A stretch of DNA of 32,809 nt, from NCBI GenBank assembly GCA_026988575.1, contig JALSKZ010000080.1, positions 1 through 32,809 on the forward strand, given 5' to 3'. Made by a program: the position numbers and the translations under genes. This DNA is from Thermodesulfobacteriales bacterium. GTDB lineage: Bacteria; Desulfobacterota; Thermodesulfobacteria; Thermodesulfobacteriales; Thermodesulfatatoraceae. Shown one piece after another: positions 8,022-9,907 of this stretch. Under the pieces are notes generated by a model, which saw only the letters and a list, made by a program, of their open reading frames with translations, was not told the origin of the DNA and made no database searches. Each line of letters starts with the position of its first letter. Position 1 is the first letter of the stretch.

Positions 8022-8050
8022 TTGACATTTAGTCTCAATAAAGTTATTGT
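8022..8050 (+). promoter_or_regulatory. Sigma70-type promoter of the DUF5320/zinc-ribbon/CDF cluster
   Basis: TTGACA (8022-8027) is followed after exactly 17 bp by TATTGT (8045-8050), giving a predicted start near 8057 and a leader of about 44 nt before the DUF5320 ATG. The -35 box sits in an imperfect inverted repeat (TTGACATTTAGTCTCAA), which could be an operator for a metal- or redox-responsive repressor; no known site consensus is matched well. The spacer between divergent genes spans 7904-8100. Confidence 0.6.
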
Positions 8051-8100: not shown

Positions 8101-8463
8101 ATGCCTGGACTAGATCGCACAGGACCATGGGGAGAAGGCCCTCGTACAGGCCGTGGCCTTGGGCGCTGTACGCCTGAAGGGAGGCGCTTATTAGAAAATT
8201 ATGGTCCTTGGTTTGGCCGTGGTTTTGGTTGGGGTTGGCGTTGCGGTTTTGGTGGTGGTTTTGGATGGCGACGTGGTTTTGGTCGTGGCCGCGGTAGGTG
8301 GCGTTGGTTTTGGGGGCCTGGTTTTGGCTGGGGTTGGCGTCGGTGGTTGGCCAGCTTGAGTCCTGACGAACGTCGCGCCCTTCTCGAAGAAGAGGCTCAA
8401 TTCTATCGCCAGCGCCTGGAAGAGATCGAAAAAGACTTGACTCCTGAAAAGGATGAAGGATAA
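8101..8463 (+). CDS. DUF5320 family Gly/Trp/Arg-rich protein
   Basis: The 120-residue protein opens with MPGLDRTGPWGEGPRTGRGLG, the hallmark of DUF5320 (usual form: MPGxDxTGPxGxGPxTGRGxGxC). Residues about 38-80 are low complexity, built of GFGWGWR- and GRGRGRW-like units with almost only Gly, Phe, Trp and Arg. The C-terminus (about 85-115, SPDERRALLEEEAQFYRQRLEEIEKDL) is a predicted coiled-coil helix. Two cysteines (residues 23 and 49) are present. Family members occur in anaerobes beside NifX-like and other metal-cluster proteins, but their function is unknown. It begins after AAAGGAGGTATTGTT and its stop codon touches the zinc-ribbon gene, so the two are co-translated. The aromatic/arginine repeat region might drive self-assembly or nucleic-acid binding; that is speculation. 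Confidence 0.85.
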   Translation: MPGLDRTGPWGEGPRTGRGLGRCTPEGRRLLENYGPWFGRGFGWGWRCGFGGGFGWRRGFGRGRGRWRWFWGPGFGWGWRRWLASLSPDERRALLEEEAQFYRQRLEEIEKDLTPEKDEG

Positions 8464-8648
8464 TGGCCGAGGGAGAACGAGAATTTCGCTGCTTTGCGTG
8501 TGGTTATGAATGGGCTGTTCCCTATGGTACCGGAAGGGTGCTTATGTGTCCTAAGTGTGGTAGTTTCAGAATCAAAAGGATGAATCCTGGCCCTCCTCCA
8601 GGGAGGAGGGGGTGGCGTTGGAGAATGCGTTGGGGCACCAAAAGATAA
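8463..8648 (+). CDS. Small zinc-ribbon protein
   Basis: This 61-residue protein carries one zinc ribbon: FRCFACGYEW at residues 8-17 and MCPKCGS at about 28-34, so four cysteines in two CxxC knuckles. The C-terminal tail is Pro/Gly/Arg/Trp-rich (GPPPGRRGWRWRMRWG) and resembles the low-complexity style of the preceding DUF5320 protein. The start ATG overlaps the stop of that gene (8461-8463 TAA, ATG from 8463). No enzymatic motif is present. It may bind zinc or iron, or act as a small regulator or adaptor of the metal transporter gene that follows; the sequence does not settle this. Confidence 0.8.
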   Translation: MAEGEREFRCFACGYEWAVPYGTGRVLMCPKCGSFRIKRMNPGPPPGRRGWRWRMRWGTKR

Positions 8649-9907
8649 ATCTCTCTAAGCAAACCAGTATATTAACCAGGGTAGCCCTTGCGGCTACCCT
8701 GTTAAACTTTTTATTGGCGGTTTTTAAATATCTCTTGGGGCGCTATACTGGTAGCTTAGCCCTTTGTGCTGACGCCCTTCACTCTTTTACCGATGTTATT
8801 AGTTCCTTGTCGGTCTATCTTGGTCTTAAGTTTGCCGAGCGTAAGACCAAATCTTTTCCCTATGGCCTATACAAACTGGAAAATCTTGTCGCCCTCCTTA
8901 CCTCTGTATTTATTTTTTTGGCGGCCCTGGAAATTTTGCATCAAGCCTTTCATGGCCAAAATATAATCATACCCCGTAGGGTGCCGGTGACGGTGGTAAT
9001 TTTTTCCCTTATGACCCTTGTTATGTGGCTTTTTTCTCGCTGGGAACTGAAAATGGCCCAAAAGTCTGGCTCTCCAAGCCTTGCTGCCGATGCGCAACAT
9101 ATCACTACAGATATATTGGCCACGATTATTATTTTAATAGGCCTTGTGGGAGGGGCCTTTGGTATTCATTTTGTCGATCGTTTAGCGGCCTTATTTGTCG
9201 CGGTCTTGATCTTTAAGATTGGTCTAGAAATTGCCGGCGAGGCCTTGAAGGTGCTGTTAGATGCCAGCCTTGAGCCAGAAATCTTTGCCCGTATCACCGA
9301 TATTATTCGCGCTTTTCCGGAAGTAGTAGAGATAAAGTCCCTTACCGGGCGGCGTTCAGGTAGATTTTGCTTTGTAGAGGCCGAAATAGTGGTAGACGTT
9401 TCCTCTCTGGAAGAGGCCCATGAGCTCGTTACCTATATCGAAGAAGAGATATATGATGCTTTTCCCGAGATCGATCGTGTTATCATCCATTTTGAACCCC
9501 CAAAGCTTAGGCGATACCTCTTGGCTATTCCTACCGAAAATAAGGGGGAAAAAGTATCAGAGCATTTTGGTTGTGCCCCAGAATTTTACCTGTGGGAAAT
9601 AGAGTGTGAGCCGGCGGCCAGGGTAAAAAGTCAACGTCTCCTCCCCAATCCCTATGTTAAGGAGGACAAAAGGCGTGGCGTGAAGGTGGTGGAATGGCTG
9701 GCCAAAGAAGGTGTAGAGGCGGTGTTGATCTCTAAACAGGAAGTCAGAGAAAGGGGTTTTATCTATGCCCTTTTGGCCCACGGTATAAGGCCTATTTTTT
9801 GTCCCCAGGCTAGTCTAGAGGCCTTAAAACAAGCCCCTCCTTGCCCCCCTTTTAGTCTTGTAACTCTCCCGTCAATTGGGCAAGACGATACTCGTGTATT
9901 TGCCTGA
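8612..9907 (+). CDS. Cation diffusion facilitator transporter fused to a NifX-like domain
   Basis: The 431-residue protein is a CDF metal exporter (residues about 20-300) with a C-terminal NifX/NafY-like cofactor-binding domain (about 302-405). The transport site reads HD-HD: His57 and Asp61 in ADALHSFTD, His163 and Asp167 in ADAQHITTD, which in characterised CDFs favours zinc, though Fe, Co or Mn export is possible. The cytoplasmic CDF domain spans about 215-298 and ends HFEPP. The added domain starts LLAIPTENKGEKVSEHFGCA, the typical opening of dinitrogenase iron-molybdenum cofactor biosynthesis-type proteins. The start is a GTG directly after GGGAGGAGGGG, inside the zinc-ribbon gene (37 nt overlap). 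The fused domain probably senses or buffers a metal or Fe-S species. The 3' end overlaps the convergent pyrD by 56 bp. Confidence 0.9.
   Translation: MALENALGHQKINLSKQTSILTRVALAATLLNFLLAVFKYLLGRYTGSLALCADALHSFTDVISSLSVYLGLKFAERKTKSFPYGLYKLENLVALLTSVFIFLAALEILHQAFHGQNIIIPRRVPVTVVIFSLMTLVMWLFSRWELKMAQKSGSPSLAADAQHITTDILATIIILIGLVGGAFGIHFVDRLAALFVAVLIFKIGLEIAGEALKVLLDASLEPEIFARITDIIRAFPEVVEIKSLTGRRSGRFCFVEAEIVVDVSSLEEAHELVTYIEEEIYDAFPEIDRVIIHFEPPKLRRYLLAIPTENKGEKVSEHFGCAPEFYLWEIECEPAARVKSQRLLPNPYVKEDKRRGVKVVEWLAKEGVEAVLISKQEVRERGFIYALLAHGIRPIFCPQASLEALKQAPPCPPFSLVTLPSIGQDDTRVFA

Follow-up and report, generated by a model that had tools for sequence, protein, structure and literature searches.

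A CDF exporter fused to a NifX-like domain in Thermodesulfobacteriales: a distinct subfamily within a putative metal-efflux unit

The metal sites A, B and C of the YiiP exporter have been defined previously (PMC6465983), and iron CDF clade 2 is characterised by an HD-HD transport site together with second-shell Asp14, Asn18 and His22 (PMC5703985). Relatives of the NifX-like domain bind metal-sulfur species in MrpORP, IssA and the Orp8 homologues, the last with a Mo-Cu sulfide (PMC6345978, PMC5524996). The Di-Nase domain of MrpORP, a member of that family, binds a cluster, which has been reported to be [3Fe-4S] (PMC6345978), and IssA, also of this family, stores thioferrate, which its Trp/Gly/Arg-rich tail has been proposed to hold (PMC5524996). 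How anaerobes balance iron, zinc and sulfide with Fe-S cluster assembly is poorly known. Here, a locus was examined within a 32,809-nucleotide stretch of DNA, referred to as the window, from a thermophilic sulfur bacterium of the Thermodesulfobacteriales. Three genes lie at positions 8101-9907, coding for a DUF5320 protein, for a zinc ribbon with four Cys and for a CDF exporter to which a Nitro_FeMo-Co (NifX-like) domain is fused (Table 1).

Table 1. Features of the locus in window coordinates; residue numbers of the pump are counted from GTG 8612
Feature	Position	Strand	Basis
Promoter-like site TTGACA-17-TATTGT	8022..8050	+	Consensus match only, chance level
DUF5320 protein, 120 aa, Gly/Trp/Arg-rich	8101..8463	+	PF17253 and composition
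Zinc-ribbon protein, 61 aa, Arg/Trp tail	8463..8648	+	Likeness to C-terminal ribbon of DUF134 proteins
AGGAGG within the zinc-ribbon gene, probable ribosome-binding site for the pump	8604..8609	+	Sequence and junction comparison
CDF exporter-NifX fusion	8618..9907	+	Start TTG 8618 conserved; longest frame from GTG 8612
Six-helix transmembrane domain of the CDF type; transport site H57, D61, H163 and D167	8687..9259	+	PF01545; AF2 model
Cytoplasmic dimerisation domain; site C partly lost (K242, E258), H270, H293 and E295 kept	9272..9499	+	PF16916
NifX-like (Nitro_FeMo-Co, IPR003731-type) domain	9545..9814	+	PF02579; relation to MTH1175 and TM1816-type structures
H-F-G-C motif; H318 in all 65 sequences, C321 lineage-specific	9563..9574	+	Alignment
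C332; in 8/8 f1/f2 pumps, 1/57 others	9605..9607	+	Alignment
C411 (PPC); exclusive to the 8 f1/f2 pumps	9842..9844	+	Alignment

Organisation of the three-gene unit

The first gene had been described in a first-pass annotation as encoding a low-complexity protein rich in Gly, Trp and Arg, and its 120 residues do include 27 Gly, 20 Arg and 11 Trp, along with 8 Phe. The protein matches PF17253 with 65.7 bits (E 9e-18) against a gathering cut-off of 27, and its core has a calculated pI of 12. The zinc ribbon is of the CxxC...CxxC type, its four Cys being invariant in 17 relatives; it gives sub-threshold matches only to generic ribbon models, and resembles the C-terminal ribbon of those DUF134 proteins that adjoin NifX, Mrp or MinD genes.

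The annotation also regarded the three genes as coupled and served by one promoter. The coupling is reflected in overlaps, in that the zinc-ribbon ATG at 8463 overlaps the DUF5320 stop codon and the pump start lies inside the zinc-ribbon gene, as in seven family members (L002-L008). The promoter, however, is a consensus match that does not rise above chance, four such sites being found where 2.4 are expected. The start of the pump, previously placed at GTG 8612, has been moved to TTG 8618, which is the more likely initiation codon from the alignment of the family, since the GTG position holds no start codon in L002 and L005 and since AGGAGG is separated by 8 nt from TTG 8618 and by only 2 nt from GTG 8612. 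At the position of TTG 8618, L002-L007 have start-like codons and L008 has CTG. With this start the pump and zinc-ribbon genes overlap by 31 nt. The suggestion that the overlap ties the dose of the pump to that of the zinc ribbon is compatible with the arrangement in the window family but is confined to it, as the two genes abut without overlap in Desulfomonile relatives.

The Trp-Arg-Trp tail of the zinc ribbon shares its bases with two successive start-like codons of the pump, GTG GCG TTG (window 8612-8623; L004, L006-L008), and the tail may therefore be a by-product of the gene overlap. At the other end of the unit, a dihydroorotate dehydrogenase-like gene on the opposite strand overlaps the pump gene tail to tail by 56 nt (9852-9907); a terminator-like site was looked for between these two genes and none was found.

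Metal sites of the fused pump

The pump has the complete CDF core with an HD-HD site that had been recognised at first reading: the six-helix Cation_efflux domain (E 2e-38) and the ZT_dimer domain (E 1e-17) both score above the Pfam cut-offs, and all four residues of transport site A are present. The NifX-like domain with its SEHFG motif was likewise recovered, the motif at residues 316-320 and the Nitro_FeMo-Co domain (PF02579) at residues 312-401 (E 3e-10; 40.8 bits against a gathering score of 26.3), which places the extra domain in the NifX/IssA family. An AlphaFold2 model built from an alignment of 65 fused pumps has a pLDDT of 88 and a pTM of 0.73. The nearest solved structures are the YiiP and human ZnT zinc exporters, and the NifX-like domain is related by sequence to MTH1175 and to a probable NifB-type protein of known structure. 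Zn2+ would be the likelier cargo, because the HD-HD arrangement at site A is typical of Zn clades, with Fe2+ a possible one. Membership of iron CDF clade 2 was considered separately and rejected, since S65, D160 and I164 occur in the window pump instead of the second-shell residues of that clade.

The metal sites of the 65 fused pumps were then compared with those of 31 plain CDFs after mapping to FieF. Site A is retained in the fused set, with HD on TM2 in 65/65 and, on TM5, His in 60/65 and Asp in 60/65, the remaining five having Glu. The residue matching D167 of the window pump, an Asp, is Glu (HxxxE) in L002-L005, L008 and L010, and this change at the TM5 ligand could possibly indicate an altered metal preference. 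Site B is a different matter: Asp68, His71 and His75 are present in 28, 26 and 24 of the 31 plain CDFs, whereas in the fused pumps position 68 is mostly Ser or Thr, and positions 71 and 75 are Phe and Leu in 65/65 (T79, F82 and L86 in the window). Site C is lost by half. His232 and His248 occur in 27/31 and 26/31 plain CDFs, as against mostly Asn or Lys and mostly Asp or Glu, respectively, in the fused pumps, while His261 and His283 are kept; in the window pump, positions 232 and 248 are replaced and the remainder of the YiiP/FieF site (His261, His283, Asp285) is kept or conservatively changed. The earlier proposal that the NifX-like domain gates the pump fits this clade-wide loss; on the simplest reading, the pump would have ceased to be controlled by free Zn2+ when it acquired the domain. 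Since the fused clade is one lineage, however, the loss of sites B and C counts as a single event and may reflect ancestry.

Among the possible ligands in the NifX-like domain, only H318 is general, being kept in 65/65 fused pumps. In the window lineage it is conserved together with C321, C332 and C411, and to judge from the alignment these four residues could form a metal or cluster site there. The three Cys are missing from most fused pumps and so do not represent the general mechanism. The absence of a conserved Cys from the extra domain of most members, together with the HD-HD site and the zinc exporters returned as best folds, would suit an exporter of the ordinary Zn2+/Co2+/Cd2+ kind, whose NifX-like domain only adds a metal-binding or dimer-stabilising module in the cytosol and has no part in cluster chemistry or gating. 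This explanation is considered rather unlikely, given that the usual accessory metal sites are lost across the clade and that Mrp/MinD, small NifX and DUF134-type partners recur beside the fused pumps.

Distribution and gene neighbourhood

Absence of the NifX-like domain from close relatives had been named beforehand as the observation that should count against the proposal. In the event, the fusion is present in all genomes of the same family, that of Thermodesulfatator (L066 matches T. autotrophicus), that have a complete gene, and in one genome (G010) of another family of the order. The three-gene order sought across Desulfobacterota holds only in part of the family, as DUF5320 is missing from the operon in the Thermodesulfatator-type genomes (L006-L008). 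The fusion itself is absent from the sister family f3, whose thirty genomes have plain CDFs only or none. At the level of the phylum, the fused profile finds matches in 63/395 genomes and 49/246 genera (E < 1e-60); in a few cases the match extends over the CDF part only. A scan of 85,000 species genomes returned 283 relatives; Desulfobacterota, Aquificota, Bacillota, Chloroflexota, Armatimonadota, WOR-3 and methanogenic or methanotrophic archaea are among the best 80 of the 283. The fused pump is thus widespread in oxygen-avoiding microbes. No fusion was seen in the plasmid collection, where no record covered 80% of the query.

The fused pumps form a distinct CDF subfamily. In a quick CDF-core tree, without bootstraps, all 65 lie on one side of a branch with an SH-aLRT of 100, opposite the 31 plain CDFs, which include E. 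coli FieF and ZitB; the fused set was gathered with motifs of its own clade, and the monophyly applies to this sample. Text searches of open-licence papers found none that describes a CDF-NifX fusion, and a paper on ANME-2a, which lists a CDF near FeMo-co proteins, has no fusion of the two. It seems likely, nonetheless, that the architecture is already listed in a domain database.

The genes nearby connect the unit with the ORP/Mrp iron-sulfur kit. Mrp/MinD-type ATPases (> 60 bits) were found at 19/64 fused loci and at 0/20 plain-CDF loci of the phylum (p 0.004; the control is small and not lineage-matched), about 70% of the fused loci having no Mrp/MinD neighbour in the DNA examined. Pfam assignments for 122 same-strand neighbours comprised 20 ParA/NUBPL, 8 Nitro_FeMo-Co, 9 Fer4 and 7 FeS_assembly_P domains, along with three each of ArsP_2, DUF364 and Gate-domain proteins, one of the last on a FeoB fragment. 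Small NifX and Mrp/MinD proteins are recurrent partners. As a separate observation, L078, L083, L091 and L015 have a 10TM permease of the ArsP_2 type immediately upstream of the fused pump, and L083 also has, farther upstream, the C-terminal portion of a FeoB-type protein.

These associations raise the prospect that the unit is an accessory to cluster assembly, the pump domain docking Mrp/MinD or Orp-like proteins and supplying or clearing metal at cofactor assembly rather than conferring tolerance. The ATPases are directly beside the pump in L085, L086 and L093, and the window genome (G000) has both an ORP-like locus on contig C54 (L158), comprising two ferredoxin-MinD ATPases and a NifX protein, and an MrpORP-like Mrp plus Di-Nase protein (contig C4, L160; 427 bits, just under the family cut-off of 450). 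Yet in the same genome the pump stands apart from the ORP-like and MrpORP-like genes, no Orp3/Orp4-like ATPases being found in the window cluster, and characterised CDF proteins are mostly exporters. An assembly role is accordingly judged doubtful.

The small proteins could also be passengers with no functional relation to the pump, as the loss of DUF5320 from the operon in Thermodesulfatator-type genomes might suggest. This is highly improbable. Strong-scoring stand-alone ribbons occur only beside fused pumps (297 genomes), Desulfomonile relatives included, and the associations exceed those of the plain-CDF control. DUF5320 genes, in turn, were near small NifX or Mrp/MinD genes at 12/20 loci, these loci having been picked from high-scoring and long-frame examples rather than at random, and at none in the plain-CDF control. 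In L186, L187 and L189-L192 the start of DUF5320 falls within a long frame (144-241 aa) whose own start was called mechanically.

Proposed function and comparison with known systems

The reading favoured here, with a probability of roughly one half, is that the unit is a divalent-metal efflux module built around a pump of a distinct CDF subfamily, sensing having passed to the NifX-like domain. The pump would export Zn2+ or Fe2+ as a dimer, while the NifX-like domain would bind Fe-S or other thiometallate species, its occupancy setting the activity of the pump; efflux would then follow cluster or sulfide-metal status, and not free Zn2+ at the dimer interface. As soluble partners, the zinc ribbon and the basic DUF5320 protein would hold anionic metal-sulfur species or pass them on. 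Dependence of the pump on a ligand of the NifX-like domain is proposed because three relatives of that domain bind metal-sulfur species and because DUF5320 has the composition of the IssA tail.

A more specific variant would have IssA split in two, the NifX-like domain of the exporter and the free DUF5320 protein together binding anionic thioferrate or another thiometallate, the load of which opens or closes the exporter. Such an arrangement, if true, would mean that a metal-sulfur polymer or cluster, instead of free metal ions, gates the metal pump, but it is considered improbable, slightly more so than a role in cluster assembly. Among neighbouring proteins, a search for NifX-type proteins with DUF5320-like tails found only His-rich or short tails in those listed.

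Under the efflux-module reading, metal efflux would be coupled to cluster status by a CDF subfamily in which a cluster-type domain apparently replaces the metal-sensing sites that were lost. The fused pump is a defined protein with clear residues to test, and DUF5320 and the DUF134-type ribbons, both of unknown function, gain a physical context.

Compared with YiiP/FieF, the window pump has the same six-helix CDF core, transport site A and dimerisation domain, but differs in its HD-HD rather than DD-HD site, in the loss of site B and half of site C, and in the extra NifX-like domain. The MrpORP/ORP complex of Desulfovibrio likewise has a NifX-like (Di-Nase) domain fused to another protein and a neighbourhood of Mrp, MinD-ferredoxin and NifX proteins. 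The fusion partner in the window is instead a membrane exporter, and the Di-Nase ligand motifs CXHFGHCE and CDH are missing, the window pump having SEHFGCAP and PPC. DUF134 proteins share the sequence of their C-terminal ribbon with the window zinc ribbon, which is without the DNA-binding DUF134 part. Finally, IssA combines a globular domain of the NifX family with a basic Trp/Gly/Arg-rich tail that DUF5320 resembles in composition, whereas in the window the corresponding parts are two separate proteins, with the globular part fused to the pump.
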